DNA of 24,568 bases from Cochliopodium minus. Its lineage: Eukaryota; Discosea; Himatismenida; Cochliopodiidae. The DNA lies in the NCBI GenBank assembly GCA_024220525.1, contig JAMYWO010000044.1, forward strand, positions 54,932 to 79,499, given 5' to 3'. Of this stretch, positions 1-24,568 are shown in pieces. The position numbers and the translations under genes are program-made. The notes beneath the pieces were generated by a model, which was not told the origin of the DNA, did not search any database, and saw only the letters and a list, made by a program, of their open reading frames with translations. Positions within the stretch are counted from its first letter, which is position 1; each line of letters opens with the position of its first letter.

Positions 1-3000
1 AGATGAACCACCCTCTGAATCCGTTCAAGTCTATCACTACTATGGCATTGACAATAGCGCCTAAAAAAATTAAAAATAATTAAAAATTAAAAATTATAAA
101 TTAAAAATTAAAAATTAAAAATTAAAAATTGAAAATTATAAATTAAAAATTAAAAATTTAAATTTAAAATTTAAAATGATCAAAAAAATAAAAATAATTT
201 GATATAATTAAATTAAAAAAAAAAAAAAAAATAATTATTGGTACAGGTATTTTGGGACTTGTCCATATGAATTGATTTGAGAGATGATGGCATTTCTTTC
301 AAGCGGATCTTTTTCTTCATCAAGATTGACGGCACCTTCGTAAGTGAGGGGATGAAAGACATTGTCTGCCAGCACTGCTTCTTTCCCTTTTTGTTTGAAG
401 CCGAAAATGAGGTCAATCCATTTGTTGATGTTGTTGGAAACATACTCGGATTCTAGTGCTTCTCTGTTTTTGAGAATGAACGTTCTGGGGTCTCCCTTGG
501 CCTGTTTGAATTGAATAAAAATTTTAATTTTTTTTTTTTATAGTTTTTTTTTTTGAAATTTTTTTATGTAAAAAATTTTTTTGTTCATTTAAATAACAAC
601 AGTAATTTTTAAAAAGAAAAGAAATTTTCATTTTGAAATATTTTTTATAATTTAAAATTTGATTAAAAACAAATTTTGTATTACCCACTTTGGAAGTACA
701 ACGTCATCAACTTTGAATCCACTTTGCGTAATACCTAAACTGAATTTGTTTCTGTTTTGGAGAAACTCGGGCATATAAAAAAATTCAGGGAGCAATTCCT
801 TGACATCGGAAGTATTTTTGACAGAGACGGATTGATATGTCGCGGCCACGTCGTAGTAAGTTCTGTCTGGCAAATCGAATTTTCCTCCCTGGAAGTCTAT
901 GTGGTATGTTGCGAATGGCTCTAGTCTGACTAAGTAGTGAAGAACGATCCCTATGTTGGAGTAGTGTGATCCATAAAGAAAAGGAGTTCTTTTCATCTCT
1001 ATCAATTCTGTTTTTTTTTACAAAAAAAAAAAAGATGAAACAAAAATTTATAACGAAGAAAAACAAAATTAAATTGAAATATGAAATTAAGAAAAAAGAA
1101 AAAACAAAAACAAAAAAAAGATTACTCAAAAAATAAAGTAAAAAAATTAATGAGTAATGTAAAATGATCTTACAAAATAAAAATTAAAAAATCAAGAAAA
1201 AATATTGGAAATTAAAAAATAAAATTAATAAAAGAGATCAAAAAGAAAATTAAAAAAATTATTACCTTTGTATCTATTTTTAAAATAGTTGAGTCTTACT
1301 GGTTCTAGTGCTCCAATGGGCTTGGACAGGTCTCGATATATTTTGGGATCGTTGAAATTGAGATTTTCTGTGGAGTACTCAGACACAACGTGAGGAAAGA
1401 TGGGGTACTGTGTGAGGTCGTTGTAGGATCTTCCGGCCAAGGTATTCAAGTGTTGAATGTATTCGAAGTTTCCGATCAATCTCTTTTTCCATTTCTGTGT
1501 GATAGACATTGTCTAAGAAATAAAAAATTTTAAAATGAGATAATATTTTGATAAAATAAAAATATAATAAAAAAATTGATTCATTCGACAAAGAAAAAAT
1601 TTTACAAGCAAACCTCCCTTTAAAACGATTTCTTGTTCATAACTTATTCTGTTGATCAACTTGTCGTCCGAAAAGAATTGCTCGTAGGCCTGATCTCTCT
1701 CACTGTTAGTCTCGAAGGTGAGCATGTAGGTCTTTCCGTTGTGGAGAAAGATCTCCATGGCGCTGTCGATCAACAAGTATCTGCGTTTCAAAATGTCCTT
1801 GATATCGTCATAAGGCCACTTGACGAGTTTACGAGAGGACTTGTTAGTTTTACTCTTTCGATTTTTTTCGGACTCGAGCAAATTGAAAAGTTTGGAGCTT
1901 TTGTGCAAGGGATCATCTTCATCTTTGGCGTCGATGAAATAGGCGATGTGGGAATCGAAAATCAATTCTCCATATCTGATCTGGAAGGGATGGATCAAAG
2001 AGCAACACTGGATCTGGGTGATTTTCTCCGAGAAGAGGCTGAGCGAGCCGGAAGTTTCGAGCATGTAGGCACTTGTGTCGAGCTCGGAGTTGAGAGGGTT
2101 TTGGATGTTGATCACTGGTTTCAATCTTCCTTTCATCCTTGCAATGAACTCGGTCGGATCTTGTTTCCATTTGATGACGGGAAGTGGCCAGATGCTTCTT
2201 TCGTGAACCAACCTTTTGGTGAGTTTTTTCCATTGCGATCTTACTGTCCTATCTACTTGCGTCAAGTTTCTTATTTTTAGCAAGATTGGCTTTTGAAGTT
2301 GTGCTTGCGACAAGTTCATTGTATCGACCATCTTCGAAAACAGATTTCTTGTGTTGTGTTTGAGCACGTTGAGAGACTTGTTTATTGATCTGATCTCTTT
2401 GAAGTTGATTTCCCACTTGTTGTACCACAACGCCTGTTCTTTTTGGTATTTCTCGAGAAGTTCTATCGCAGAAAGGCTCATCAAATGTTCGATGAACAAA
2501 TCGCTTTTTTGATGGATCAAATCAATCAAGTCTTCTGACTTTTTGGTCGTCTCCATCTTTTGATCGTGTTTTGGAAAGAGCAACAAAAGTTTTAGTACAG
2601 GATAATCTTCAACTTTCGGAATTAACAACTCGTATGATCCCCATATCATCTTTATCACTTCGTTTGAGATTTTGTTTTCTACTTTTGCAAAGTTGAGTAT
2701 CTTTGCAGTGGAGATCAAGAAGCAAGGGCAGAAATACTCGTCGATAAAAAAGCTATTCATTATGGTATCGAAATCTCCAAATCTTTCCATCAAGTAGGAA
2801 AAAAACTGGGTGGTTTTGTCCCTTTGGAAAGTGAAAATGTTGCACAATAATTGAATGAAATGCACTGAAATCTTTTTCCCAAAAGAATTATCTTTGTTGA
2901 TCTTGTAGATATCGAACAGATTGACAAGAAAGTTGTACTCAAACTCTTCCCACTCTTTGGTCATCTTGTCATCAAAGAAATAGGTTGTTTTGTCATTGTC

Positions 3001-6000
3001 TTCTTTTGATCTCTTAAAAATCCATGTAGCGCAAGACAGAGCGAAAACACCACAAAAAGAGTTTTGGTAAGTATTGTTTTGATGAAAGTTGTTTGCGTTA
3101 AAAAATTCGATGATCTCACTGAGAATCGACATCTGGAAATACAACTTTGCATCTTGAGACAAATCTTGCAAATTATCGATCGAAACGATCATTCTCGACA
3201 GCCATATCACGCAATTCGTTTCGTAAGGAGGAGTAGTTGAGACATATAACATACATGCTTTGATGAGTGATGAGATGAGTTCTAACAAGTCATCCTCTTC
3301 ATCTTTGATGTTTTCGTTTTGATGCTTCATTTCTTCAGAGTACAACTTACAAAGGAGAATGGGGAATTCGTGCTGCAACAAAATCTTTTTGTTTTCTTCG
3401 TTGAAAAGAAAGATGTTGTGGAGTGTTTTGAGAACATCTACTTTCAATTTTTTCTTTGCCTCACAAGACTCGAGAGTGGTACATATAGTCTGTAGAAATT
3501 CGGGATTGGGTATAGTGAATTGTTTATCGAGAAAAAAGCTGAAAACATTCACTTTCGAATCTATTTCTAGAGATTGTTTTCCCAACATCATTGATATAAG
3601 AACAGACATGAGTTCATGGTTGATTTTTTGTTCTGAGAGGGTTTGGCCAATCAAATAACAAATAGTGGGGGTGGATATTTCTTGTGCGAGAATCTGCTCT
3701 TTGAGACAAGTTTGAAGTATTTTGAGTGAACCTATCCTGATTTTGATATTTTCATTTTGAAGGAATATGAGCAGGATCTCCACATTAAAAAATTTAATGA
3801 AAGCATTGAAATAGTTGGATTGTTGAAGATAATCTTTTAAAATGAAAAAATTTAGTTTTGAATTAGGACTAGTTCTAAAAAAAGGATGTTGGGGAAAAAG
3901 ATTACCTAACAGTAAAGAAAAAACTTTTTTTCTCATTACTACAACTTCAATAGACAATTTTAAGTTTAAAACAAGTGGAATGCTGAATTTTTTTGTTGAA
4001 GTAACGATCTTGGCATGAGCGTTGCATCTTTTGACAGCAGGTTCTTGGGGTTGTGTTAAAATAAGGAATTGGAACAATTTTTCCAGATCTCCAATTTGCA
4101 TCAATGCATTGATACAAACAAGAATAGGAGTAATTGAGTCAATGGGAGGATAAGGAAAAGATATTAAGAACAGGTTAAGGAAGTAATGTATTCCACCCAA
4201 CTTCTTGAACACTTGTACATGGTATTCACAGTGTTGTGAAGTCAAAAGTTCTGCTAGGGTGTTGAATAAAATCAGTTGGTATTGAGGAGGAGAGCTTCTC
4301 CATATTGTCCAATTAAGGATCCAGTTTTGAAAAACATACAAGTTGGAAACACATCCATTAGAGAAGGTATAACTTTTTGATTTGATTTTGATATTAACTT
4401 TTGGACTGTTTAGGAAATTTGTATTCATACTTGGGAGGAGGCCTGCAGCTTCAAAGATACAATCAATTAGTAAAGGTTGTGAAATCCACTTTTTTCTTGC
4501 ACGTAAAAGAGCAGCAATCAAATGATACCCCCCGCATGTAACCATCTGATCCAAGATGTGATGATTGAATTTCAAAAGGGAACACAATATTTTAAATAAG
4601 TACAAAACCTTTTCCTCATCATCTTGTTTTACCATTCCCAACAAAAAGATTATTACTTGCACACCTCCCAAGTTGTAAAGAGAATCCTTGAAAAGAACTT
4701 GATTTACTTCTTCCACGCCCAGTTTATCGTATTGCAAATTGACATTGTTGTAGGAAATATTTTCGTTGTTCTTCAACAAAGATTTTTTAACGTTTGATAT
4801 GAGAGAAACAAACTTGGTGTCTCTTGCATAGAAAGTTATTTTTGAGTGGTTTCTGAGTCTCAAAAGATTGTGTTTTTCTCCGGGATTCAAAAAAATGCTG
4901 GTGTCTTCGTATTGTTCTAGTGATTTAAGGTTGATAATGTCGGGGAAATAATAATCGTTGAATTTTGAGTTGAACCCTCCGCTGTATGAAGGTCCAAGCA
5001 TATAAATGAGGGTGGCTTCTTCTCTTTTTATAGGAAGATCAAAGAAAAACATGTTTCCCAACCTCCACTCCACTCCCAAGAAATCAGATCCCAGAATCAA
5101 TCCAACATTGCTGTTTTGGAAAGAAAGTTTTCTATTTGAAGAGATTTTCTTGGGTTTGAGTGGTACCTCACCGAAGCTCTCGTTGAAAGAATCAATTTGA
5201 TTTAAAGTTGGATAAAGAAGATACTTGGACTCACAAAATAATCCATTTACAAACACTTCGACGATAGATTCAGAAGATGATTCTTTTCTTGTGTGGGACA
5301 AAGCTAAGTGATACCATTCACCATCTTTGAATTTCACATTCTCAAAATTAACAGAGTGTGAATTGGTTGATGTAACTTGGAGTGTGTAATCATCAACAAG
5401 AGATACTGAAATATATGGAGGGTTTTCTATTTTGTTATTATCTTGGAAAATGGTAACTAATCTGTGATACTTTTCTGAAAACTCTTGATTCTCGTAAACA
5501 GAAACTGGTTTTTCTAGGTATATCCAAAGACTAATTGACCAACCTGCTAAGGGAGGCCAAAAAGTGTCATTAAAACAGCGGACATCATCAATCTTTTTTT
5601 CAAAAAAGTATTTAAAGTTTTTGTAAGAAATTTATTAATTGATTTTACCTTTAGCCAATTTATTTGGTTTCTGGGGAAATGTAAGTAATAGTATGGAGCG
5701 TAAGAAGTTTCTGTTAACTTTAGCATCGTTTGCAAAATGTTCTTAGGGTAGTTGCCTTCAGGCTCCAAGAGTTTCAAAAAGTAAGTAGCTTCTTTGGTGC
5801 TCACATTGGAATTTTTGCCTACCACTTCGATAAGCTCCATCAAAGTCTTTTGTATTTTTGACTCTATTTCAGTTTGTTTGATTATATCTCCAAACTGTTC
5901 CAAGATGCAAAGTAAAAACCCTCTTTTCTGCACAAGTTTAGAATTGGGAGAGGATTTAAACAAAAGAATCAAAGACTTGAGTATTGTGCACTTTTGGCTA

Positions 6001-8822
6001 TTGCTTATGACGTGATAAGAAGTCTTTGTCATTTTTATGATGCATTCCAAGAAATCAGGAAAGATTATGGTGGCTCCATTCATACAATCAATACAATTAT
6101 TGAGATCTACAATGTTTTCATATTCACCAATGCTCTTTTTTCTATGTTTACTGCAATTAGGAGGCCAGTCATTTTCTAAACTCGCCGAAAGCAAAGAGTT
6201 GCAAATTCTTATTGCATTTTCTCCTTCAAAAAACCCACTTTCTAATATCGAATCTGCAAAAGTTGAAAACTGGATGTTTTTTTCAAAGTAAATTCTGTCT
6301 TCTTCGCTCTTTTTAATACACTTGCTGATAAATTGAATCAGTGAAACCAAAAAATCCATTACATACTTTTCATTAGTTTCGTTGAAAATGGTGATGTTTC
6401 CATTTCCATTAACATTATTCTCTTCATTCATTTGGTTTTTGTGTTTCCCTAAAGTGCTCAAAATGGAAAGACACCAAATAAAGCCTCCCTCCGCTTTAAA
6501 AGTGGAGATGAGAGTAGGATTAGAAGAGTAGATTCGAGAGATGATGTTCATCAGATCCTTTCTAACTTCGAAAATTTCAAATTTGGTGTTCTCTGAGATT
6601 CCAATGGAGCTTATCAAGTTTGTGATCAAGTTTTTGGTGATCAAAGTGGAGATTTTGTTATTCTCTGTTTGAGAAACAATAAGAAAAATGATCGAAAGAC
6701 AAGTAGATCTCGATTCGTTTTTGTCGATAAACTCAATCAACTTTTCTAAAATTCCCTTCTTTTTGATGACAACGCTAGTGTCTTCATTGCAAAAAACTTT
6801 TCTAAACAAAGAAATATCCGTCTTGAGAAATTCTTTCGTCAAATTGAGGACTTTGTCTTGTACAGCAAACAAAATGTCATCAACATTGAAACTAAAGTTC
6901 CTGCCCACCTCTCCATTTTTCGTTTTGATAGCGGGACTTAACTGTGATAAAATTTCTGCACAGTTTTTGATTTCAGACTCTTTGTTGAGGGCATCTGTGT
7001 AAGGAAGTTCAGAAATAGGCAAAAAAAGTTTCTCTATGTGGTCGAACAAGCCAGCTAAATACAAAGTGGAAGGATTGAGTTTTTTGTTTCTCAGATGCAA
7101 TATTATCTGTGAAGAGACAACGATCACTGAACTGGCATTCTTCAAACTCAGTAAGCCAACCAAATACTTACATTCTTCCAAACCAAAAGTGTCCATGTCA
7201 AATATTTCTATAATCTTCAAAATTTTTACTTTCAATCCAACTGTCAGATCTTCGAAACTTGTGAACAAGATTTTGAAGGGAGAAACGGATTTAATCTCGT
7301 CATATTTACAAAAATTCTTGAAGAGAGCATACAACAAATTGACCATGGTTTCTTTGACATAGTTTGAGTTTACTATGTTGAAAAAATTTAAGAAAATTTC
7401 AAACGCTGGAAAATTGGAGATTTTATAAGTGACATTTTCCACAAAATAATTTAGAGGCAATATGATCACTTCCTGTTTACTTTCATTGTTTGGTTTCATT
7501 TCATTTGTTTCTTTTTTCTCAACCAAAAAGAAGAGTCTTTGAATAGAAAATATAAAAGTGATCGTCTCTTGTTCTGTCCCTATTTCTGAAACTCTTTTCA
7601 GACAGTAGTTAAGCTTTTGATAAAATTCTTTAGTGTTGAGGTGCTTTAAAATGATGTCTGAAACTGTCGTGAATTTCTTATAAAAATACAATTAATTTTT
7701 TATAAATTTTTTCATTGGTTTTACTTCTAATGAATAAATTAGTGATAAAGATACTTCTAATAAGAGACTGGACGAAAGTTTTGATTCTTGGATTATGTTT
7801 AAAACATGATCTATCAACTCCTAAATGGTTTGATTTTCAAAAAGTAAATTGATTAAATTTAAAAATAAAATAATTTAAAATAATAAATTTAATAAATATA
7901 TTTTTCAAACTTTCTTTTTTACCATTTTGATTATTATCCTTTGTCCATCATTCGATTCACTTGCCGCCTTCAAAATGGCATTCAATAATCTGATGGTTTT
8001 CTTTTGAACATGATGTACCTCCAAATACTCGCATCCTCCAACTTCCAATCTCCATATGTTGAAGATTGATTGAAAGAATTTGATGCCATATTCATTCTTC
8101 TCCAAATTATTTAATAAGATCTTCGATCTTTGATTGCATCCAAAGAGATTCTCAATGTTATTCAAGATGGTGAAGAATATATTTGTTATAAGCAAATTCG
8201 ATTTCTGTGTTTTGATATTTGAATCCATCTCTTCCCTATTTATTGATTGTGGCAATGGATTCAGATCATAATATGATGATATCGATCGAAATGCCAATTT
8301 GGAAGTCATCATCACAGATACCCCAAGGTCAAAACTCCCGAGATTGCTGAAGATGAGTCCCGAGATTGATATTAATGTATCCAATAGTAATATAGATGTC
8401 TCCTCATCAAACTCCTAATATAGATGTTAAATAAATAATATTTGAAATAATATTCTAAAGATATTTCATATTCCAATTACAATTCTTTGATATGTTATTC
8501 TATCCAAACTCCACATTATATATATTCCCAATTCAGATGTCAAAAATTTGATCAATTCCAAATGATTGTTGGTGGTGGAGATTTTTTGAATCAATATACT
8601 CACTATTTTATCGAAGAAATCATCACAAAATATGAATTGGGAGTTTATTTCATTATCATCTTTGAATATATCACAAAACTTTTTGAGAATCGTTATCAAT
8701 AATTCATCCTCTTTATTGGACCAATTATTTCCAATTATGATTGAATAGTGATACCAATATGAATTAAACTCGAATAATGAATCTAAAGAGGTGTTAATAT
8801 TCATTGTATCAAGAGTATCCAT
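1..8822 (-). CDS. BEACH-family protein (LRBA/WDFY/Lvs type), 3' end cut by window edge
   Basis: Large scaffold of the BEACH family, which acts in vesicle and lysosome traffic or autophagy; the exact subfamily is unclear. Exons read on the minus strand: 8822-8481, 8414-7923, 7820-7725, 7676-5649, 5592-1606, 1512-1266, 1007-685, 501-245 and probably 60-1. All join in frame, giving about 2,590 residues before the last exon. The N-terminal third is armadillo-like helical sequence. A ConA/laminin-G-like domain opens the 4-kb exon (about residues 995-1170, WSISLWIY and GEWYHLALSH). A pre-BEACH block (WKKLTKRLVHERSIW) and a PH-BEACH domain (about 2182-2300, RRYLL) follow. The BEACH domain itself is unmistakable: NFEYIQHLNTLAGRSYND, DLSKPIGAL, YGSHYS, LPEFFYMPEFL, NVFHPLTYEGAVNL. 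The ATG at 8822 directly follows an in-frame TAA. The 60-1 exon fits by splice site and phase but shows no diagnostic motif. The WD40 tail is missing here; see 23467-24424. Confidence 0.93.
64..244. repeat. AT-rich low-complexity intron, ATTAAAA-like units
   Basis: The intron after the BEACH-domain exon (61-244) is built mostly of imperfect ATTAAAA/AATTTAA units and a long A run. Similar unit-built sequence fills the introns at 24056-24261 and 23688-23903. It has no sign of function beyond being intron and is a likely cause of broken assembly. Confidence 0.6.
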
Positions 8823-9144
8823 TTATTTTTTTGATTAAATAATAATTTTAAATTTGGTCAAAGAAATAAAATTTTCGATGAATTTGATATTTTTTCTTTT
8901 AAAATAAAATTATAGTTTGAACTTTCTTTGATCGTGAAGGTTTATTCCTTCATTTGAAGTAAACAAAAATGATGAAAAGCATTAAAGTTTCAATTTTTAA
9001 GAAAAATTTTCGATCCCAAAACATCTTTTTTAAAAAAATAATTCTGTAGGAAAACAATCCAAAGTTTAAATTGTAATAAAGTTAAAGAAAATGTGTATTA
9101 TATTTTTTTTTGACAAATTTGTATGAAAAAAAAAAAAAAAAAAA
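8823..9144. promoter_or_regulatory. Divergent promoter region between BEACH and LRR genes
   Basis: This 322-bp intergenic stretch separates two start codons in head-to-head orientation and holds no convincing coding frame. It contains the 16-mer TTATAGTTTGAACTTT at 8910-8925, closely matched in the next divergent promoter (12844-12859). A small hairpin lies at 8935-8952 (arms TGAAGG and CCTTCA, 6-bp loop). A run of about 20 A directly precedes the LRR start. The promoter role is inferred from position. Confidence 0.5.
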
Positions 9145-10179
9145 ATGGGCAATAATCCAAATAAAGAGGATAAAAAATCAAAACCCCAACAAAATAATAA
9201 TTTGATTCCCGACACAAATAATAATAATATCAATTTTTCCATTGAGAAAATCCTATCAGAAGATAAAAATAATATCGAGGATCGGCCTGATGAGATAATA
9301 AAAAATGAATATCCAAATAATAATATTATTCAGACAGATCCATTCAAAATGGATGCATCGGAAGAAAATAATCTGAAAAATAATTACAAATGGCTATATA
9401 TAAAGTTTGAAGATAACCCAAAGGAATTGGATCTGAGCACAATAAATTTGGATCTGAATATAATAAAATATATGGGTTACTTATTCAAATCAAATAAGAC
9501 AATAAAGAAAATAAATCTGAATAAATGTTCGATAACCAAAACAGTCATAGAATATCTGAATTTAGCATTATTGAATACTCAAGTGGAATTATTATTTCTG
9601 AGTTATAATGGAATAGAATTGCAATGTATAAAGGGACTATCCAATTATATCTCCTTCACGAAACATCTTACCAATCTGTATCTGGGAAACAACCAGATAT
9701 GCGATAAATCGATGAGATATCTCTCATTAGCATTGAAAATGAACACATCGATAAAGATGATCTACCTATCCAAAAACAAATTTGGAGATGAGGGTGTGGA
9801 ACACTTGTGCAAGGGACTCCAAGAAAACAAAACGTTGAAATCACTGTGCATAGACAACAATCAATTCACAGATAAATCTCAACAATACTTTTTGGAGCTT
9901 CTCGAACACAATTACACATTGGACTCTGTCACCCTTACTTCTTTCCGCATTTCTTATTTCTTCAAAGAAAACGTAAAGGCTTTGTTGAAATGTAATACTG
10001 TTTGGTCAAAAGACATCCACTTTACTCTTTCTGATTCGTTTAAGAGAGCTACCCACACTTTCCTCCTTTGCCTCAAGGCCGTTCAAAAAACTACAAAAAT
10101 CAAAATCACAAAATACATTATTTATGAAATATTTAGGTTGGTGAATAGGAGAAGTTTTGTTGAATTAGAGAATGATTAA
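9145..10179 (+). CDS. Leucine-rich repeat protein, ribonuclease-inhibitor-like repeats
   Basis: Intronless 344-residue protein with no specific function assigned. Residues 1-75 are hydrophilic and Asn-rich and are probably disordered. From about residue 94 to 265 there are seven leucine-rich segments about 28 residues apart: LDLSTI, INLNKC, LFLSYNGI, LYLGNN, IYLSKN, LCIDNN and LDSVTL. The 28-residue spacing is typical of RI-type LRRs, which form curved protein-binding surfaces. The C-terminal 80 residues are a mixed basic segment with no repeat. The protein starts MGNNPN; Gly2 could allow N-myristoylation, but residue 6 is Asn rather than the preferred Ser/Thr, so this is weak. No signal peptide or membrane segment is seen. 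It is divergent from the BEACH gene and convergent with the GCFC gene, 150 bp away. Asn codons shift from all AAT at the 5' end to mostly AAC later. Confidence 0.88.
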   Translation: MGNNPNKEDKKSKPQQNNNLIPDTNNNNINFSIEKILSEDKNNIEDRPDEIIKNEYPNNNIIQTDPFKMDASEENNLKNNYKWLYIKFEDNPKELDLSTINLDLNIIKYMGYLFKSNKTIKKINLNKCSITKTVIEYLNLALLNTQVELLFLSYNGIELQCIKGLSNYISFTKHLTNLYLGNNQICDKSMRYLSLALKMNTSIKMIYLSKNKFGDEGVEHLCKGLQENKTLKSLCIDNNQFTDKSQQYFLELLEHNYTLDSVTLTSFRISYFFKENVKALLKCNTVWSKDIHFTLSDSFKRATHTFLLCLKAVQKTTKIKITKYIIYEIFRLVNRRSFVELEND

Positions 10180-10329
10180 CACTTTTTTCTGTCTTGAGAT
10201 AGAAAATTATTTATTAAATTTTGGAAAAAAAAGTTTTTGAATTTAAATCTTTTTTGTTTGATTACACTCGTGAAAAAAAGATTTATCATAAATAATTTTA
10301 ATGGGTAAAAAGAGGAAACTTTTAAAAGT

Positions 10330-12795: not shown

Positions 12796-13018
12796 CAAAA
12801 AGATTTAAGAAAAGCTATTTTTTTTTTTATTTATATTTTTCCTTTATAATTTGAACTTTTGATTCTGGAATGGTTAATAATTATTCAATGTATTTTGGAA
12901 ATCTTCAATTGTTTGCCCTGAAAGAAGAAAGTTCAAAAATTTGCTTTTAAAAGAAATTAAAAGGATCAAAAATAAATTAAAAAAAAAAATCATTGTTTGA
13001 ACATTTGAAGGAATTTAA
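12796..13018. promoter_or_regulatory. Divergent promoter region between GCFC gene and UTP6, with GAAC-type motifs
   Basis: This 223-bp head-to-head spacer carries three related motifs: TTATAATTTGAACTTT at 12844-12859, TTTGAACTTTCTT on the minus strand at 12925-12937, and TTTGAAC at 12996-13002. The first two match the motif of the 8823-9144 promoter. Entamoeba core promoters are known to contain a GAAC element, but whether that element is related is speculation. No coding sequence is seen. Confidence 0.45.
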
Positions 13019-15408
13019 ATGGGAGATAGAGTTGATGAGATCCTTGAAGGATATATTAGAGAACTTGAAGATTTGATCATTAAGGGGATTTGTTCTAGAG
13101 TAAATAAATAAAAAATTTAATAAATTGTTGAGAAAATGAATAGAATTAAAATTTAATTTTTACATCGTTTTATTAGGAGGAGATCAATAGAATAGTGAAT
13201 ATGAGAAGAGATTTTGAATATAAAATTAATTCCAATAAACCATACAAAGAGGATTTTCTGAAATATGCAGAATATGAATTGAATCTTGTAGAATTGATCA
13301 AATTGAGAAAAAAGAAAGAAGATATTAAATTCGAGACAGTATACGAAACTAAAATACATCCAAGATTGATGAATTTATTCTTCAGAGCAACTAGAAGATT
13401 CCCAAGTAAAATGGATTTTTTTAAATTTTTTTTTGGAGATTAATATCGGAATATATCAAAAAGAGGATATCAAGTTATGGTACCAAATGATCGATTTTTG
13501 TTTGAAGCAAGGAGATAAGATGACGATAGTGAATTCGATCTCGAATGCTATCAAGCAACATCCAAACAAATCCAAATTCTGGATATTGGCATGTCAATAT
13601 GAATTCAAACATAATGTCAACATTTATACAGCAAGAGGTAAATAAATTATAAATGATAAATCCCCAATAGATAAATTAATATTTCAATTTTGATCAGAAA
13701 TAATTCAAAGGGGAATCAAATATAATCCAAAAAATAGAAAATTATGGATCGAATATTTCAAATTGGAGCTCATATATATGACCAAAATGCATAATTCCAT
13801 CGAAAGTACTTCTGGTGATAAGAAAGATAGAGAATCCCTTTTCAAATTGGATACCATCGATCTTCCCGATGAAGAAAATCAAGAGAATCAGGAGGATTCA
13901 AAAACTGATTTCAACAAATTCTTAGAAACACCATATCTCAAGGGTAATTCTTGTTTTCTATTAATTGTTGAATCAACAAAAAAATTTTTATCTTAAATTT
14001 TTTACTTTTATTTTTATTTATTTTTGTTAATTTATTTATTCTTTCTTTATACTCATAATTTTGATCTTTAAATAAATCCAGGAGAGGTACTTAATGCAAT
14101 ATACAATCTTGCAGTTGAAGAAATCCCAGACAATTTGAGTTTTAAAAAGCAGTTTTTGGACATTTGCTCCAGAAATCTAAAATTGACTAGCAACACACAA
14201 AAACTCATTCTAGAGGACTTGCTTGTCAAGTTCGAGGACAAGGCTAAAGTTTGGGACATGGTCTCCAGGGGTAACTGGGACAGTTTGTGCTTCGAAAAAG
14301 ACATTAAGGAAGAAATTTGGTCTGAGAAATTTTTTACCATTTTGGGTAATTACGGAAAAGGAATCAAAAAGGTAATTTTTAGAAAAAAAAATTCTTTTTT
14401 TTTTAATTTCAATAATTTTTTATAAAAAAAAAACAAGTTTTCACAAGAAAATAACACCAAACAATCACAAAAACTTTCCCTTTATTTATTGTCCTTTTCT
14501 AAATTTGTACTCGAGAAATTCTCTGTTGTTCCTGTTTTGTCCAACACCCAAAGAGTCGTCGAGAAAACTATCAAGCAAACGAAAGAACAGCTCCTGGCAC
14601 TCGAAAAGCAAAACACCTTCACTAAAAGATTGTACCTCGATTTCGTAGAGTTCCTCCTCAACACTGGCAATGACACAGAAGGATTAAAAATATCCGCAAA
14701 CTCTGTCAAATCTTTTCCCGATGAACCTTCCGTCGTTATTAGTCATGCTAATGTTCTCATCAAATCTCTTTCTCTTTCCCTCACTTCTAAGCACTCTGAT
14801 CTTTCTGACAAAAACCCTTTGGTTGCCCAAATCAATGGTTTGTTTCAGAATGGCCTCACCAACAAGAATCTTTCTTCCACTTTTGATTTTTGCTCCCTTT
14901 ACATCGACTTTCTCCTTTTGTCACATTACGAAGAAAAAGATCTTACCAAAATTTTTCTTGTAAAATTTTTATTTTGTTTTTTCTTTGTTATTTACTTATT
15001 TTTTCCTTTCCAAAGTCTCTTCTTTATAGAATTAACAAAAGTGATTCTCCTAAATTGCAGATAAAATGTTTCCAAGTTGCGACCATATTATTCAGCCAAA
15101 ATGTCGTCGATTTCATGGTGGAGGAAATGATCAAAAACCGATTCTTGTCTCTTGAATTTTGCTTCCTTTGCATTGACTATGAAAGTCAGAAACAAAATTA
15201 TGATTTAGAAAGAATCCGCCGACTCTACGAATCTTTTGTTCCTTTACATGGAAACAGTTCTACCAAGTTGTGGCTCCATTATGCCAAATTTGAGCTCAAA
15301 CATAACAATTCCAAGTTTGCAAATATTTATTGGCGTGCTAAAAAGATGTTGGAAGATCCCACCATCTTCATTGAGGAATGTGATACCCTCAAAAACATTA
15401 TTTATTAA
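13019..15408 (+). CDS. UTP6: UTP6, U3 snoRNP / SSU processome HAT-repeat protein
   Basis: Nucleolar component of the UTP-B subcomplex of the small-subunit processome, needed for 18S rRNA maturation. Exons: 13019-13099, 13177-13405, 13464-13637, 13698-13943, 14082-14371, 14438-14959, 15061-15408. Phases agree throughout and give 629 residues, close to the roughly 600 usual for the family. The N-terminus (MGDRVDEILEGYIRELEDL, then EEINRIVNMRRDFEYKI and KEDFLKYAEYELNLVEL) matches the conserved UTP6 N-domain. HAT repeats follow: DIKLWYQMIDFC, SKFWILACQYEF, NRKLWIEYFKLEL. The block IPDNLSFKKQFLDIC (exon 5) and the C-terminal HAT TKLWLHYAKFELKHN with IYWRAKKML are also family-typical. The exon 2/3 junction uses the AG at 13462-13463, which restores FPKDIKLW; the earlier AG at 13439-13440 would break the frame. 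The gene is convergent with the homeodomain gene, with 233 bp of AT-rich non-coding DNA between the stops. Confidence 0.95.
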
Positions 15409-15641
15409 ATTTTTACTTATTAAATCATTTCCAAAATTTCTTTCACAAATTAATTATTTTCCAAATCTTAATAATTTTCACTTTTTCTTTTCCTAAATAT
15501 TTATCATAAAAGTCAAATCCACTTCTTTTATAATTCCCGAGCCAAATATTAAAAAATAAAATTGAATTCCAAAATAAATCAAATTTTTAATTAATACAGA
15601 CAATATAAAAAGCTTCTTTCTTCTATTTTTTTTTTTTTGAG

Positions 15642-16379
15642 TCATCTCATTCTTTCCTTTTTCACTTTTGCTCGTTGATTCATAAACCAATTTTTTGTCC
15701 TGTCGAAGCTGAGATCCACTTTGCCTGCGATCTCCTCGATCGTTATTCTATCAGGGAGGGTATTTTCTTCGAAATATTCCAAAAGTTGTGTCAATTGCCA
15801 ATCCTCCAACATTCTTCTTCCATTACTTGCTGCTTTCTTGCTAGGTGGGCTGCTGGGTGTCTTGGATGATTGTTTGGTTGATATCTTTCTTTTCTTCGAG
15901 GAACTCTTCTTGGGTGATGGCTCCCTTTCTTCTTGTATATTATATTTGTTTGTTAAATTTTCCTCTTGAAACTTGGTAGAGATTTCATTTATCAATGGGT
16001 TTGAATGCAATATATCTTCTTCGATCATTATATTTTCCGTTATATTTTTTGGTGTAATGGATGTCACTTTGATTTTTGGCTTTGATATAGTTATCTCCTT
16101 TTTCTCCTGTATTTTGTTGCTTGTGATTGTTTGTCTTTTGTTGGATACTGTGGGCTTTTTTGATGGTATATCCTTCAATTCATAATAATCGTTTCTTTGT
16201 GTTCTTTTCTTTGATCTTTTATTACCTTCATCTGGATAATATTCGTTGGTAAGAAGATACATGGTTTTGTATTGTGATGATGGGCTATCTTCAAGGAAAT
16301 TGATTTTGTTTTTTGGATCTTTGATTGATTTCTCATATTCGCTTTCGAATTGGCTCCATTTTTCTATTGTCCAAGACAT
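15642..16379 (-). CDS. Homeodomain protein, 245 aa
   Basis: Likely nuclear DNA-binding transcription factor. The homeodomain spans residues about 184-243 at the extreme C-terminus. Setting Trp231 as homeodomain W48 places L16, F20, W48, F49, N51 and R53 at their canonical positions, and helix 3 reads TKNWFMNQRAKVKK. Length and spacing fit a typical 60-residue domain without the three-residue TALE insert. Residue 50, the specificity position, is Met, which is unusual; common residues there are Gln, Lys, Ser or Ile. Upstream lies a basic Ser/Lys-rich segment (KKSSSKKRKISTK), a probable nuclear localisation signal, and a disordered middle. The N-terminal MSWTIEKWSQFESEYEK is probably a short helix of unknown role. 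Intronless. It ends with a basic tail just before TGA. It shares a 530-bp divergent promoter with the PH-TPR gene. Confidence 0.88.
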   Translation of the reverse strand: MSWTIEKWSQFESEYEKSIKDPKNKINFLEDSPSSQYKTMYLLTNEYYPDEGNKRSKKRTQRNDYYELKDIPSKKPTVSNKRQTITSNKIQEKKEITISKPKIKVTSITPKNITENIMIEEDILHSNPLINEISTKFQEENLTNKYNIQEEREPSPKKSSSKKRKISTKQSSKTPSSPPSKKAASNGRRMLEDWQLTQLLEYFEENTLPDRITIEEIAGKVDLSFDRTKNWFMNQRAKVKKERMR

Positions 16380-16909
16380 GTTTTTGTTGTGTTTTAAAAG
16401 ATATGAATTAAAATTAAAATTCAGTTTTTTTTATATATTGTTTTTATTATTCAATAATTTTTTATTTATAACGAATATTTAAATTCCTCTTTTTGCAACT
16501 AAAAGGAAGATTATATAATCACAGCAGTATTAAAGAATGCTCAATTCATTCCTGTTTATTTAAAGGAATGCAAAATGAATTATGTTTGTTCTGACACTTT
16601 TATGGTTTGGGGATTAATTTAAATCAAGGAAGAATTTGTATTTAAGAAATTGAAAAAATTTTAATATCAATATGATTATCCTTCCATCTTTTCCTTAAAA
16701 TAAACAGGAATGAATTGAGCAAAAATCTTGAATATAAAAATAATTCCTTCACATTATGGTGAAAATGAAGAGAAACTTTGATAGATCTATTTTCCTTTTG
16801 ATCTCCGAACAAAACTCCATGCCATTGTATTTTTCATTTGAGTGAAAAATATTTTTTTTTTAAAAAAAAGGGATTTCAATTAGTCTTCTATTCCTGTGAT
16901 TGATAGACT
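16380..16909. promoter_or_regulatory. Divergent promoter region between homeodomain and PH-TPR genes
   Basis: This 530-bp spacer between two start codons is the longest true intergenic region in the window. No coding frame is convincing. It holds a 31-bp inverted repeat (16538-16568 and 16692-16722), a perfect 12-bp palindrome GATTATATAATC at 16509-16520, a short hairpin with arms ATTTTTCA/TGAAAAAT near 16828-16850, and A/T runs just before the PH-TPR start. The regulatory role is inferred from location only. Confidence 0.5.
16538..16722. repeat. 31-bp inverted repeat with 123-bp spacer
   Basis: Arm 1 is 16538-16568 and arm 2 is 16692-16722. The reverse complement of arm 1 equals arm 2 at 30 of 31 positions, sharing AAATAAACAGGAATGAATTG and the bases that follow. 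The spacer is not itself self-complementary, and I see no obvious target-site duplication outside the arms. It could be a paired regulatory site, the remnant of a short inverted-repeat DNA element, or a cruciform. Confidence 0.8.
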
Positions 16910-19900
16910 ATGGAGAATTCCAACAAGACAATTTACTCTTGTTATTGGTATAAACAAGGAGATTTCATCAAAAGTTGGAAGAAACGATATATATTGTTGA
17001 CAAAACATTCAATTGATTATTATGAAAATGATGTACATTCAAATACGTTCAAAATTTAATTCTCAAATTTCCTATAAAATATAAAATTTATATTTTCAAC
17101 CTTATTCCAATCTAATAAAGCAAAATTTAAATGTGCACATTATATTCAACAAATTACATTCAATTTTTTTAGCAAATGAAGAAAAAGAAAGGTGGAATTA
17201 GAATGAGTGATGTAAATGGTTTATGTGAAGAATGGAGACCAAATAACAAAAAGTATGGCAATTATGGTCTCACATTCAGAACAGCTCAAGATAACAAGAA
17301 GGATAGGCAATGGTATTTCGTTTGCACGATCTCGCAACAACAGACCAATTGGATACATTTGATGAACAAATGTATAAATAAAGAATATATAGAAGAAAAA
17401 GAAAATGAATTCAAAAATATCAACAAAGGTAAATAATTAAAATTTTATATTCCCAATAATGTATCTCCACTTGGACGGAATTATGAAAAAGAAATCCACT
17501 TTAAAATTAAATCGAAAAATTATTTAAATAGGAAATGTAAACAGACTCACCCAAAACTACTTGAAAGAGGAGCCCATCAAGTCTCCGCCTCCTGTCCCAA
17601 AGAAAGTGCACGAAACCTATAAACAACTCAACACCAAACCTTCATCTTACCAAGAAACAAAAGTGGTTTCACCTCCTCCGCCCACTCCTAAAAAAGTGAA
17701 CAACATAGACTATCCAACAAATAGCAACCAAAACAATACCAAAGGAAACAATAAGAGTATACAAAGCAACAGTTACACTCCTAGAAGCAATGTTTATGAC
17801 GAAAAGTCACCTCCTCCTGTCCCAAAGAAGCCCAAATATGAACCTACTAAAGAAACCATGTCTCCAACAGTCAATTCTCCGCCTCCTAAGCCGGTCCATC
17901 TTTCAAAGAAGAAGAATAATGATCTCGCTAAGAACACTGTAATTAGTAACAATAAAAATAGTAATGATACAATAAGTGACAACACAACTAATCACAATAT
18001 TTCAAACTATTATACTTCTACTAATAACAACAACAATAATAACAATAAGAACACAAACATTTCTACTTCTATGGGCAATAATAATTCCCCAATTATTAAC
18101 AAAACACCCAACAATCCCTCTTCCAGCAATATAAAGTCTAACAAAAGAATTAACAACGAAAATATCGACAATAATGTCATTTCTAATAATAATAATTTCA
18201 AAAACAACAGTAAACCTTCTACAAACTCCAAATCTGTTGAAATTAATAATGAAAATACCGTTTCTAACAATAAAATGTCTTCTCCCACCCCTCCTTCTAA
18301 GCCCACCACCATTACCACCACTGCACCTTCTGACAGGAAAATCACCAAGACCAACCAATCTTCTTTTGACATCTATAACGTTGCTGTTGATATGTCAGAA
18401 TCTGATGATCCCAAAAAGTAAAAATAAAAATTTTTTAAAGTTTTTTTTAAACTTCAATTTATTTATTTTTTTTTAAAACTTCAACCTTTTTTTTAAAATT
18501 ATTTCTTTTTTAAATTTAAAATATTTCTATTTTAAATTTTAATTATTATTTAATTATTTCCATTTTAAATTTAAATTACTATTTTAATTATTTCTATTTT
18601 AATTTAAATTATTTCTTTAAATAATTTAATTTGTTTCTTTTTAAATTTAAATTATTTCTTTACTTTTAAAAAATTTTTTTTTTAAAATTTTTCATTTGTT
18701 TGTTAGGTTGCAATCAGCAATAGAAATGTTCAACGAGTCCATCAGAAAGAACCCACTCTTCCCAGACGCATACAACAACAGAGGGATCTGCTACCAAAAA
18801 CTGGGCAAGTACGACATGGCCATCAAGGACTTTGACAACGCCATCTTCAACGACGATGACTGCATTCAAGCTTTTTACAACAGGGGTATCTTGCATCAAA
18901 AAATTGGCAGTTTGGACAAGGCTGTCAAGGATTTGGAGCATGTCATTAAACGTGATCCTAGGAATGCTGAGGCTATGGCTGCTAAAGGTTCTTTTTTTTT
19001 TTTTTTTTATTTTTTTTTAAATTATTTTTTAAAAATATTTGGTTTTGTTTTTATTTTATTTTTAAAATTTTTTTCAATCATTGTTTAAATTTCATCTTTT
19101 TTGATTTTTATTTATTTTTTGGTTTAAAATTATTTATTTTTCAATATTTTAATTTTTTTAATTTTTTTTTTTTTCATTCGTTTATTTTTTTAGTTTAAAA
19201 TCATTTTTATTTTTCATTATTTTAAATTTTTTTTCTTTTTTATTTTATTATATTTTTTAATTTATTTCATTTATTTTTTCATGGAAAGTTTTATTTTATT
19301 ATAATTTCATTTCCATATTTTAATCCATGTACTCTTTAAGGATTCATTTGTTTCAACCAACAAAAATTCAACGAAGCACTCCCCCTCTTCGCCCAAGCAA
19401 TCAAAATCAACCCCAACCTCTACCAAGTTTGGAATGCGATGGGACTCGTCATGTTCAAAAAGAAAAGTTACAAAGAAGCTGTCACTTTTTACACCAAATC
19501 TGTCGAATCAAATTCCAAATATCCTGATGCCTACAATAACAGGGGTTTCACATATAGTAAAAAACATTGTTTTTATATTTTTTTCATTTTTTTCATTTTT
19601 TTTAAAAAATTTTTTTTTTTCTTTTTTGGTTTTGAAAAATTTTTATTTTTCTTTTGTATCAATTTTTATTTTTTTTTTATTTATATTTTCTTTTTTTAAA
19701 ATTTTTTTTTTATTCAATATTATATTTTTTCTTAATTTTTTTTGTTTTTATTTGTATCATTTTTTTCAATTTCGTTTTTATTTTTTATTATTATTATCAT
19801 TATTATTTTTTGTTCAATATTATTATTATTTTATTATTATTATTTTATTATTATTATTTTTCATTGTTTTATTCACAATTTTTGTTATTTTTGTTATTTT

Positions 19901-21564
19901 TGTTATTTAATATTTTTTTTTTTATTTATTTTAAAAAGTGTCATTAAGAGAGTACGAGACAGCAATCCCGGATTTCCAAAGGGCTGTGCAGATCAATCCT
20001 TCTTACTTGGACGCACAGCTCAACTTGGGAATGGCTTACAATTATATCAATGACAAATCCAAAGCTCTCGAAGCGTAAGAAAAAAAAAAATAAAAAAAAA
20101 AACAAGAAAAATAAGAACAAAAAAAAATAAATAAAAACAAAACAGCATTTTTTGAATAAAATTGAAAATGTAAACAATAAATAAAAAATAAAAAAAATAG
20201 AAAAAATTCAATTAAACTTTTTTAATCCCATTGTAAAATCAACGAGATATATATCTTTTCAATTAATTGAGATTGGAATAGAGAATGATATAAAAATAAT
20301 GCTAAATAAATTATATACCTTCGATTGAAAGAAATATTCGTTATATCTCTCTCAAGATTTTAATTTTAAATGGTATATTCTCTTTCATTTTACTAGATTT
20401 TGAGGTGAACATATATGTTCCACGTATTTTATATTTGCCAAAATATAATAATATGATTGATATAAATCATAGAAACAAAGATTTTATTGCTCCAAATTGT
20501 AACATCTTGTTCCTATATCCATCAAACCTCATATACCCTTCCTTTTATTTTATTTTTATTTTATTTGATTAAAAATTTTTAGAGTGGGTTTGAAAAACTT
20601 TAAAAAAAAAAATAAAAAAATTGGCAATAAAAAACAACATTTTAAAAAGAAAATTACAATTAATAATAAAAATTTTTGTTAATAAAAAAATTTTTGTTCA
20701 TAAAAAAAAATTATTTCTTGGAAGATTCGAAAAAGTGCTCAAATTAGATCCTAAAAACTCACAAGCTTACAATTACAGAGGAATTTTGTACAGGGACAAA
20801 GGTGACAACGAAGGGGCGATGAAGGATTTCTCTCGAGCCTTGCAAATCAATCCAAGACACGTTCCCACTTTGTTTAATCGGTAAAAAAATAAACTTGAAT
20901 AAAAAATAAAATAAAATATTCGAAAAAAATATTTAAAATTTTAGTGGGAACATTTACAAAATCGAAAAAAAATGGGACCTTGCTATCTCAGATTTTAATG
21001 TATTGATACAAATAGATCCTGGTGACAGCAGCTATTATTCTGCTAGAGGACTTTGCTATGACTCCATGGGAAAGTATGACTTGGCCATCAATGATTTTAA
21101 CAATGCTTTAAAGTTAAACAAAGATCCGAAAATATACAGTAACAGGGCTTTGTGTTTTCATTCAATGGGTAAATTAAATGATTTTTTTTTTTTTTTTTTT
21201 TAAATTTTTTTTTTCATTTGAAAAGGAAAATACAAAGAAGCAGAGGAGGATTACACAAAAAGCATAGATTTGGATCCTAATAATAGTAAAACTTGGAACA
21301 ACAGAGGTCTTGCAAGAAAGGAGTTGGGAAAGAAAAACGAGGTAAGATTTAATTTTTTTTTTTTTTTTCTCAATTTGTACAAAGGCAATCCAAGATTTTA
21401 CTCAATCTATTAGGATAGATTCTAATTATGCGAATGCATATGTAAACAGAGCCCAAATTTATAAATCTATGGGAGAAAACAACAAAGCCAAGGAAGATAT
21501 AAAGGTTGCGCTAAATCTCCAACCAAACAACAGTATTGCAAAACAGATGATGCAACAACTCTGA
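16910..21564 (+). CDS. PH domain - proline/Asn-rich - TPR protein, ten exons
   Basis: Exons: 16910-17032, 17173-17428, 17532-18417, 18707-18987, 19341-19556, 19939-20074, 20725-20880, 20945-21168, 21226-21341, 21385-21564. All phases agree; the product is 857 residues. A PH domain (about 11-105; WKKRYILL, KGGIRMSD, C-terminal NWIHLM with the family Trp) suggests membrane phosphoinositide or protein binding. Residues about 130-300 hold repeated SPPPVPKK-type motifs that resemble class II SH3 ligands, followed by an Asn/Ser-rich disordered tract. Residues 422-857 form about 12 TPR motifs (DAYNNRG, LGKYDMAIKDF, ALKLN), a protein-binding superhelix. The PH half and the TPR half are joined by a 289-bp intron; splicing aa|gtaaaa to ttag|g gives an in-frame KKLQSAIEMF join. 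If unspliced, AAG TAA ends a PH-only product at 18421. Two adjacent genes are the alternative, but no start codon opens the TPR half before its first helix. No specific function is recognised. Confidence 0.83.
20075..20724 (+). other. 650-bp intron of the PH-TPR gene with higher-complexity core
   Basis: This is the longest intron in the window. Splicing it out joins the TPR residues SKALEA and FEKVLKLDP exactly, so no exon is missing. Unlike the other introns, which are almost pure A/T runs, its centre (about 20218-20560) has mixed sequence. It carries perfect palindromes AGATATATATCT (20245-20256), TCAATTAATTGA (20259-20270) and GAACATATATGTTC (20407-20420). I find no snoRNA box pair or tRNA in it. 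Confidence 0.6.
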
Positions 21565-21661
21565 GAGAAAAAAGTTAAATAAAATGTTTTTTAATTTTTT
21601 AAATTTTGACTTTATTTTGATACACTATTGTTTTCGTTTTTTTTTTTTTTTTTTTTGTAAG

Positions 21662-22336
21662 TTAGTTTTGATAAACATTTGGTTTTTTGTATAATTTTAG
21701 CAGCAAAGAAGAACTCACAACACAAACAGAGGACAAAGCCATACATACTGAAGCAACTTCAGGAGGGAGAATGAAAGGTCTGAGGGCAGGATAAAAAATG
21801 CCAGCAGCCAAAGGAATACCAAGACAGTTATAAATAAAGGTCCAAAAAAAATTAATTCTTATTCTGTTATAAGTAGTTTTGGCAAGATCAAGTGCTGCAA
21901 TAACATCTGACAAAAAAAAAAAATTTTTTTAATTGAATAAAAAAATAAATTAAAATAAATATAAAATTTACCAGTGAGATCGTTTTTGACGAGAACAATG
22001 TCAGCGGTTTCGATTGCAATGTCTGAACCTGCGCCTATCGCAATACCAACATCTGCAAGTGCCAAAGCAGGAGAATCATTGATACCATCTCCGACCATGG
22101 CAACCTTTAAAAACAAATGAAAAAAAAATTTAAAAAGATAAAAAAAAAAATAAAAAAATAAAAATAAAATAAATTAATAAAAAAGTAAATTGAAATTTAT
22201 TTTTTTACCATTTTTCCTGCATTCTGCAACTCTCTTACTTTCTCTGCTTTGTTCTGGGGAAGGACTTGTGAAAAAACATTTTTTTTGTCCATGTTGAGTT
22301 GTTCAGCAAAATGATTAGCTGTATTTTTGTTATCAC
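21662..22336 (-). CDS. Copper-transporting P1B-type ATPase, C-terminal part only
   Basis: Membrane pump that exports or compartmentalises Cu(I) using ATP. Three terminal exons are visible: 22336-22209, 22104-21972 and 21906-21662, joined in phase, about 168 residues. The P-domain end shows GDNKNTA (the G is split across the intron upstream), [10 protein letters not shown] and the hinge motif [20 protein letters not shown], then [15 protein letters not shown]. The last two membrane helices carry YN ([15 protein letters not shown]) and MALSS, which in this family are the Cu(I)-site residues of transmembrane helices 7 and 8, so copper rather than zinc or cadmium is favoured. The product ends shortly after the last helix ([12 protein letters not shown]). 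Everything upstream, including the metal-binding N-terminus, actuator domain and DKTG phosphorylation site, is absent because the sequence breaks at the N at 22442. The gene is convergent with the PH-TPR gene, 97 bp apart. Confidence 0.93.
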
Positions 22337-22370
22337 CTGATGAAAAAATAAAAATAAAAAAAAATATTAA

Positions 22371-22442
22371 TAAAAATAAAAATAAAAATAAAAATAAAAA
22401 TAAAAATAAAAATAAAAATAAAAATAAAAATAAAAATAAAAN
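22371..22442. repeat. TAAAAA hexamer microsatellite ending in an ambiguous base
   Basis: About 12 nearly perfect tandem copies of TAAAAA occupy 22371-22441, and position 22442 is N, the only ambiguous base in the window. The repeat lies inside what should be an intron of the copper ATPase. The sequence after the N belongs to a different gene on the other strand, so the repeat probably marks a contig end or scaffold join. Confidence 0.9.
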
Positions 22443-23381
22443 TTGTTGATGGAAAGGGAAAAGGAATTAATAGATTTTGGTATGATGAAGTAAAAGGAGA
22501 TTTGAAATTTGAAGAGAATTCTCTTCATTATTTTAAAATTCATATTCATATTATTGATAAAGAAACAAATGATGGAGAATTATATTCATCATAAGGGGAA
22601 ATTTTTTTTCTTTTTTAGAAGAAGATGTTGATCAGTTTGGAACAAGTCACTTTGATTTTCATCATCAACTTTTTTGCTCTTTTTTGTGGAAGATTCTTTG
22701 AAAGTTTCGTCAGAGAAAAATACTAGTAAGAATTTCAATTCATTTATTATTTTTATTTTTTTTTAATTTCTTTTAATCATTTTTTAATATTTACTTTACA
22801 ATGTATTTTTTTTCATTTCAATTCTTTTATATTTATTTAAATTTTTTTTATTATCAAAAAGATTTAGAGATACTTTATGAACATTAAAGCAGAAAGAATT
22901 TCTCTTTGTGAAGTTGATGGAGATGTGGTTTCCTTCTAGTTTCTCCAAATTAAAAATTTTATTTTCTGTCGCAAAAGGAACATCGTTGTAAAAAGAATTG
23001 TAAATCTTGAATTTGCTCAAGGTGAATTTTTTTTTTCATCATTTTTTTAAAAATTTTTTTTTTTTAATGGAGTAAAAGATGGTTTGGTGAAAGGGATGGA
23101 GAGTTTCAAAGATTCCATAGTGGATGTCTTTCACGGACTCGTAACTAAAACATCCAATAAATATCAGAAAGAAGGGATCTCTTCTGCTGCAAGACAATTT
23201 TAACAGGAGCTGTCGGTGTGTTTACAAAACCTCCCGAAGTATTGGTGCGAACATTTTGAATTTTTACAATGACGAAGCTTTACTAAGAGCCAAAATCAAG
23301 TACAAACTTTCTGAGGAAGTCTATGATTTTGTCTGTTCTCAACTTTTTACTCAAAACTTAGAGAATTTTCGAAAGTTTTAA
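22443..23381 (+). pseudogene. VPS13-like C-terminal region, apparently disrupted
   Basis: VPS13 proteins are bridge-like lipid-transfer proteins at membrane contacts. Four blocks resemble their C-terminal part. 22443-22591 contains LHYFKIHIHIID. 22619-22723 contains LISLEQVTLIFIINFF. 22868-23021 contains YFMNIKAERISL. From 23073 the sequence reads KDGLVKGMESFKDSIV, then HGLVTKTSNKYQKEG, then in other frames ILTGAVGVFTK and ANILNFYNDEALLRAK, with a stop at 23379-23381. The last block matches the VPS13 pattern of GLxxG, GxVTKP, QKEG and GxxGxxTKP. A GT-AG intron at 23022-23072 fits in phase. In-frame stops at 22592, 22724 and 22937 and two frame changes near 23190-23250 break the reading. Either the gene has decayed or this segment contains base errors; it lies in a poorly assembled contig. 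Open minus-strand frames also cross 22600-23030, so the strand is not certain for the first three blocks. Confidence 0.42.
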
Positions 23382-23466
23382 TTTAAACGAGGAAACAAAA
23401 GGATTGCAAAAAATCTTTTTTTTTTAATTTTAATAAATAAATGAATATAAATAAAAAAAAAACAAA

Positions 23467-24424
23467 TTATATTCCCAAATTCTTTGATTCATCGCTCAAA
23501 TAGAAAGAGTAGATTTCACCATTCTTACAGCCGACAAATATTTCGGAGGAGTCCTCATTGAGACAGATGGAGGTGACGGGAGAGTTGGAGCCGGATTGAA
23601 ACTTTTCCATGACTGTCAAGTCAACGGCTGACAAAAGTACAATATCTCCAAATGTATTCCCAACAACGATTATGTTAGGTAAATAGCCTATTATAAAGAA
23701 TTTTGAAAAATTAAAAAAATTAAAAAAATTCAAACAAAAAAATTGAATTATCCAAAAAAAATTTAATTTTAAATTTTTTAAAAAATTAAAGTGAATTAAA
23801 AATCAAAAAAATTAGATTTTAAAAAAATTAATGAAAAAAAAAAATTTAAAACGAATTAATTAAAATCAAACAATTAATATTTAAAAATTTAATTTTTTCT
23901 TGCCTTGGATATAGTTAGAGAAGCTCGCACAAGTTATCTTGGTGTCGAGTTTACTTTTGGCTATGACGTCTCCGTTGATGCTCCACAAAATCAGACTAGA
24001 GCCGTTCTTTTTATATACAGGTTTTGAAGGGCTGGAGTTGGATTTTTTCAAGGGTCTTTTTTTTAAAAAAAATTAAAATTAATATAAAAATTAAAAATTT
24101 AAAAATTAAAATAAATTAATAATAAATTAAAATAAATTAATAATAAAAATTAAAAATTAAAATAAATTAATAATAAATTGAACAAAATAAATATTAAAAA
24201 ATAATTTAAAGAATAAAATTAAAAATTAAAAATAAAATGATTATAAAATAAAAATAATTACTTTTTCGACAGAACTTTGTTTTTGGTCTTGTTATCTACA
24301 ATGGTGAGAATGTCTCCTGTGTTAGGATTTACTTTGACGCGATAAACACGTGTGCCCTCTTTGGTGCAATCAAGTGAAAGGATGTAGGTGTGTCTATTCA
24401 AATCCCATACAATAGCAGTTCCAT
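23467..24424 (-). CDS. C-terminal WD40 exons of a BEACH protein (5' end beyond the window)
   Basis: Three exons, 24424-24262, 24055-23904 and 23687-23467, join in phase and give about 178 residues ending in TAA. The first has DGTAIVWDLNRHTYILSL, closely matching the final WD40 blades of BEACH proteins, followed by VNPNTGDIL. The second has NGSSLILWSINGDVIAKSK and CASFSNYI. The third has VVGNTFGDIVLL and IFVGCKNGEIYSF. The product ends after DESKNLGI with no FYVE domain, unlike WDFY3. The intron at 23688-23903 starts with GC (AG|GCAAGA) rather than GT. The strand and content are exactly what the BEACH gene cut at position 1 lacks, so this is probably the same gene and the two window ends are probably neighbours. 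It is convergent with the VPS13-like fragment, 85 bp apart. Confidence 0.85.
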
Positions 24425-24552
24425 CTGTTGAAAAAATAAATAAAAATTTTAATTTAAAATTAAATACAAAAAAGTTTTTATTAAATTAATGAAATTAAAA
24501 ATATAATATTAAAAATTTTAAAATTAAAAAACAAATTATTTAAAATCAATAA

Positions 24553-24568
24553 AGATCGGAAGAGCACA
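24553..24568 (+). other. Illumina TruSeq adapter remnant
   Basis: The last 16 bases, AGATCGGAAGAGCACA, are identical to the start of the standard Illumina TruSeq adapter. They are artefactual, not genomic. The genomic sequence therefore ends at about 24552, inside an AT-rich BEACH-gene intron. Confidence 0.97.

Follow-up and report, generated by a model that had tools for sequence, protein, structure and literature searches.

We analysed a 24,568-base stretch of DNA from Cochliopodium minus (the window, C44:54932-79499), which carries genes of eukaryotic type and in which a BEACH gene without its tail and a BEACH-type tail without its head appear at opposite ends. Scaffold C44 is 208,633 bases long and belongs to an assembly of 44.65 Mb in 598 contigs. 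The split BEACH gene and the circle that it seems to imply are most likely an ordinary assembly artefact and not biology. In the explanation that we regard as probable, the split is an ordering error of the draft assembly, and the right-hand segment of the window belongs to the left of position 1, where it would complete the BEACH gene. It is close to certain that the join within the window, at a single N, is false.

The window is the stretch between two runs of N inside C44, with further sequence on both sides. It directly adjoins 1,597 N on the left (C44:53335-54931) and 3,053 N on the right (C44:79500-82552), and a single N divides it into contigs A and B. Contig B ends with 16 bases of Illumina adapter sequence, which has one exact copy in the genome and none in a backwards-read control. 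The adapter ahead of the right-hand N run suggests that this run is an assembly gap. Position 24552, where the preliminary description of this DNA ended, is the last base ahead of the adapter. The two ends, read there as possible ends of a molecule, are instead edges of N runs inside a scaffold. The features involved are:

1-22441: contig A; BEACH head at the left end, last part of a copper P-type ATPase at the right end; 1,597 N to the left, single N to the right.

1-8822, minus strand: BEACH gene without a WD40 tail (long front, PH_BEACH, BEACH domain), from the BEACH exons, PH_BEACH and upstream frames to 8822.

238-1497, minus strand: BEACH domain in three exons; PF02138 positions 1-270, LRBA and neurobeachin structures.

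21662-22336, minus strand: last exons of the copper P-type ATPase; TIGR01511 positions 393-542; the acceptor at 22336 continues C87:119123-119271.

22344-22441: (AAAAAT)n array, a tandem repeat of period 6, in the ATPase intron at the break of contig A.

22442: single N, almost certainly a false join of contigs A and B; the ATPase is cut here, its continuation lies on C87 and C44, and the C277 template has no match in B.

22443-24552: contig B, misplaced and most likely belonging left of position 1; headless BEACH-type tail at the right end, wrong neighbour at the N.

23467-24428, minus strand: three terminal WD40 exons of a BEACH-type protein (about 24261-24428, 23902-24066 and 23467-23682).

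24553-24568, plus strand: Illumina adapter remnant AGATCGGAAGAGCACA; the exact copy is unique in 44.65 Mb, and 3,053 N follow.

The join at 22442 is judged false because the ATPase gene cut there continues in phase on C87 and C44 and has no continuation in contig B. The front of an ATPase lies on the same scaffold at C44:40215-42350, in a contig that ends at the single N C44:39892. In the assembly, HMA domains (six matches) and relatives of the last ATPase exon (three matches) are found only on C44, C277 and C299. As C277 and C299 each have both halves, the C44 front and the C44 back form the unpaired set. On a template of 731 residues hand-spliced from C277, the C44 front covers residues 48-325 and the contig A back covers 600-728. 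The missing middle, used as a query, had 11 matches, distributed over C277 (three), C299 (four), C87 (three) and C255 (one, weak), whereas the C277 template matched nothing in contig B at E up to 1. The middle stretch on C87 (117236-118649) is located in a contig between a single N at 116587 and 108 N at 118914-119021. In the next C87 contig, from 119022, an exon at 119123-119271 fits just ahead of the first ATPase exon of contig A and matches residues 1173-1221 of copper-transporting ATPase 2 (E 7.2e-4).

The pieces join consistently. Intron phases agree from the C44 front to C87:116588-118913 (0/0), from there to C87:119022 (2/2), and on to contig A (1/1), where the phase-1 junction G|GT restores the TGDN motif. 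For the two strong ATPase junctions, chance agreement would be 1/9 on phase alone. In addition, the family positions are contiguous. In E1-E2_ATPase, the C44:39893 piece ends at 64 and the C87 piece starts at 67; in Hydrolase, the C87:119022 exon ends at 122, where contig A starts. In TIGR01511, the front ends at 136 and the back begins at 393, and the ATPase pieces do not overlap. The contig A part is below the full-length cut-off of TIGR01511, as expected for a fragment, and so are all single pieces. The preliminary description's view that the segment right of 22442 is misplaced is thereby borne out, because the copper ATPase gives contig A another right-hand neighbour.

The arrangement of these pieces points to how the window may have arisen. 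C44 holds the ATPase front to the left of its back, and C87 holds 116588-118913 to the left of 119022; both orders are opposite to the gene order, with orientation kept. In our proposal, contigs would have broken within introns full of long A/T arrays and would then have been scaffolded with their orientation kept and their order swapped. The order in plus-strand terms would be contig A, C87:119022 onward, C87:116588-118913 and C44:39893-53334, while contig B would most likely lie to the left of contig A, its WD40 exons completing the BEACH gene truncated at position 1. If the A-N-B join came about through the same error, the order B-A follows from the swapped-order rule, and the BEACH gene needs the same order. 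Seven single-N sites occur in the loci examined (C44:39892, C44:77373, C83:94337, C78:127673, C318:19323, C87:116587 and one on C35, L021 position 1173), a small and unchosen sample of the assembly. Six of them adjoin A/T simple-repeat arrays, and the remaining one, by eye, adjoins an AT-rich tandem stretch. A cut gene is visible at five sites, the C78 and C35 sites being left out of that assessment. The error probably arose in scaffolding. A mate-pair orientation error as the cause of the swap is a guess, which does not simply explain the gap sizes.

The BEACH gene of contig A leaves the window at position 1 without WD40 repeats, as had been described, and 1,597 N lie beyond. Its minus-strand BEACH exons (1225-1497, 679-1008 and 238-528) correspond to Pfam Beach positions 1-93, 77-184 and 174-270, each above the PF02138 cut-off. 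The domain matches the structures of LRBA (1T77, E 3.1e-87) and neurobeachin (1MI1, E 1.2e-85). Upstream lies PH_BEACH (PF14844) at about 1678-2004, with E 3.8e-16 and 59.5 bits against a cut-off of 27.5, and a ConA-like domain (PF13385) reaches 19.3 bits, under its cut-off of 27.6. The reading frame suggests that the gene starts at 8822. In PH-BEACH-WD40 proteins, a WD40 tail is expected after the BEACH domain. Queries from the contig B tail found nothing convincing in contig A (best E 0.43).

The right edge of the window carries, also as described, minus-strand terminal WD40 exons to which no front is attached; adapter and then N lie beyond. Two of the three exons match the contiguous tail of the BEACH locus on C78 (E 5e-6 and 3e-4), and the middle exon does not (E 5.9). 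With an E limit of 1, the hand-spliced exons match 19 Pfam families, of which most are beta-propeller/WD40 models; Beta-prop_EML_2 leads (2.6e-9), and NBCH_WD40 of neurobeachin is among them (1.4e-6). All 19 matches are under the cut-off of their own family. Joining 24552 to 1 does give the usual domain order, as proposed earlier, but by an estimate from C78 it still leaves about 160-180 residues absent between the BEACH domain and the first exon of contig B. The assembly-wide search once suggested for these middle WD40 exons, made with a C78-based query, returned only C78 itself and generic WD40-like matches, the next best being on C83 (E 5.3e-5). The intron after the second WD40 exon (23880-23905) seems by eye to begin with GC and not GT, whereas its counterpart on C318 begins with GT.

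The head that owns tail B was sought among all BEACH loci. A profile search of the assembly gave 38 BEACH matches on 11 scaffolds, such counts being lower bounds. Heads without a tail are found on contig A, C58, C83 and C275, and the closest head to that of A is C58, with 76% identity over 214 residues. A second headless tail lies at C318:18576-19077, near the single N at C318:19323, and the BEACH search of the assembly gave no match on C318. Compared over 133 columns, tails B and C318 share 56% identity (range 52-56%). They differ at 26, 18 and 48 first, second and third codon positions in 92 codons, a pattern as expected of coding sequence under constraint.

Loci with both head and tail provide a scale. 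C78, C292, C18 and C353, four of the seven loci where a tail was seen by eye, give six pairs; in five of them the heads are 51-67% and the tails 17-25% identical, and in the sixth the values are 93% and 90%, with three head values resting on 86 residues. Among the six pairs of tailless heads, A and C58 share 76% and the other five pairs 48-58%. As the two tails are 56% identical and the other head pairs only 48-58%, A-C58 is the only head pair that fits B and C318, so that, judged from sequence, B and C318 would belong to A and C58 as their tails, whichever goes with which. C83, where a single N likewise cuts the BEACH gene, was rejected as the source of tail B: its head is only 54% and 58% identical to those of A and C58, which is at odds with sister tails at 56%. 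The two BEACH paralogs offered as an alternative in the preliminary description are thus real as two sister heads and two sister tails, while the head of B is favoured to be A, not proved to be so.

The strongest competing explanation accepts that contig B is misplaced and assigns its WD40 exons to the C58 gene, the tail of A then being on C318. In line with this, the C58 BEACH gene also loses its end, and C318 offers another tail without a head, with 52-56% identity to B. Against it, B shares scaffold C44 with A, whereas C318 and C58 are other scaffolds, and the swapped order of the ATPase pieces would set B directly ahead of A. For these reasons, B's position on A's scaffold and the swapped-order rule, the A-B pairing is favoured over C58-B, and B is probably the tail of A's gene and not of C58's; the C58 assignment is unlikely. 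Intron texture was given no weight in this choice. TTAA is dense in all three contig B introns and in one of three contig A introns, and mean 6-mer similarity is 0.69 and 0.71 for A-B and C58-C318 against 0.56 and 0.59 for the other pairing. However, controls show little local signal: TTAA density shows no local correlation (Spearman 0.06 for 177 pairs no more than 500 bases apart), and median 6-mer similarity is 0.62 for neighbours against 0.57 for distant stretches, a slight excess.

A single N need not give the size of a gap, and other single Ns cut genes too. The N at 22442 might accordingly be a real gap of many kilobases between true neighbours, further BEACH and ATPase genes being half lost in gaps. 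This is very unlikely, as the contig A ATPase exons continue elsewhere in phase, no unpaired HMA front is left for a second ATPase gene, and the BEACH domains on 11 scaffolds offer B only the heads of A, C58, C83 and C275 (both counts being lower bounds).

Still less probable is that the swapped order is real, with the protist carrying genes such as the copper ATPase and BEACH genes in scrambled pieces, to be united by DNA unscrambling or by trans-splicing across split AT-rich introns. Such a system would account for order being swapped with orientation kept in two places, and the C58 BEACH gene does become an unrelated coding stretch in an intron without N (L038, C58:45276-46215, an AT-rich intron); N follow this switch on C58 from 45275 down to 36863. 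Against it, every one of the eight readable piece ends (of the ATPase, B, the C318 tail and the BEACH gene of contig A) coincides with a single N or a run of N. Seven sites are involved:

C44:39892, C44:54931, C44:77373, C44:79500 (after the adapter), C87:116587, C87:118914-119021 (two ends) and C318:19323.

A circular molecule running from 24552 to 1, although it would yield the usual BEACH domain order, is rejected: the scaffold of 208,633 bases continues past the window in both directions, with N runs and what by eye are further genes, another contig is the right neighbour of contig A, and an adapter ends contig B. Moving 22443-24552 to the left of position 1, the preliminary description's own solution without a circle, is the best reading.

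Several observations weigh against this placement or against the ATPase chain behind it. N runs might in principle be other than unassembled sequence, and the swapped-order rule consists of two cases. The linker residues from A to B were not found, so the B-A join has no intron-phase test. Moreover, the sister BEACH gene on C58 is also tailless, and paralogy cannot assign tails to sisters. On the ATPase side, the C87:119022 exon has no match in C277 (best E 3.0) and reaches 16.9 bits in Pfam Hydrolase against a cut-off of 26.4, the phase-2 junction within C87 involves exons at the left end of C87:116588-118913 that match the template weakly (E 0.08 and 0.35), and C87:117301-118499 and the right edge of the C87:119022 contig lie outside the stretches read. 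In addition, about 70 bases (L010 4894-4963, C44:39893-39962), located in the ATPase intron where a contig ends, match neither an ATPase exon nor the intron repeat and by eye are of higher complexity.

The remaining features of the window concern neither split gene:

15645-16430, minus strand: homeodomain gene (PF00046, E 7.1e-12).

22443-23327, plus strand: degraded, incomplete copy of C87:145678-145916 (lactonase gene) and C87:155632-156825, in which deletions and frame breaks occur.

The left half of contig B thus consists of copies of two C87 stretches 10 kb apart. Its first 147 bases are 99-100% identical to the C87 lactonase gene stretch, and the remainder is 81-93% identical, with the deletions and frame breaks. 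The impression by eye that the plus-strand gene here is a VPS13 tail was rejected, the matches to six VPS13_C loci being weak (best E 0.02), and neither its pieces nor the hand-spliced C87 copy matched Pfam. Elsewhere in the assembly, C275 (L041) holds BEACH positions 1-141 only and C18 (L042) positions 139-276 only. These may be the two parts of one more gene divided between scaffolds, though they are 82% and 93% identical to C292, respectively.

Our analysis disposes of an apparent circle and an apparent split gene, both false. The order of contigs in this assembly is untrustworthy across single Ns at A/T-array introns, and claims of gene order or gene loss drawn from it need such a check. 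Order swaps can be detected cheaply and without reads by matching intron phases across the pieces of a split gene.

Like LRBA, neurobeachin and their relatives among the PH-BEACH-WD40 proteins, the contig A gene has PH_BEACH followed by the BEACH domain; unlike them, it is cut by a gap, and its link to a WD40 tail is an inferred one. The ATPase resembles the copper-translocating P1B ATPases ATP7B and CopA in its HMA domains, A-domain, P-domain parts and last transmembrane segment, which are spread over the pieces as PF00403 and PF00122 (C44 front), PF00122 (C87), and PF00702 and TIGR01511 (contig A). Unlike ATP7B and CopA, the gene is divided among four contigs, namely contig A, two on C87 and the one from C44:39893 onward. 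The whole is like other mis-scaffolded draft assemblies in its breaks at A/T-array introns, the N at the readable breaks (ATPase, A and B), the adapter at a contig end and the genes cut at joins. It differs from the usual mis-scaffolded draft in that two sets of pieces, on C44 and C87, have their order swapped and their orientation kept.

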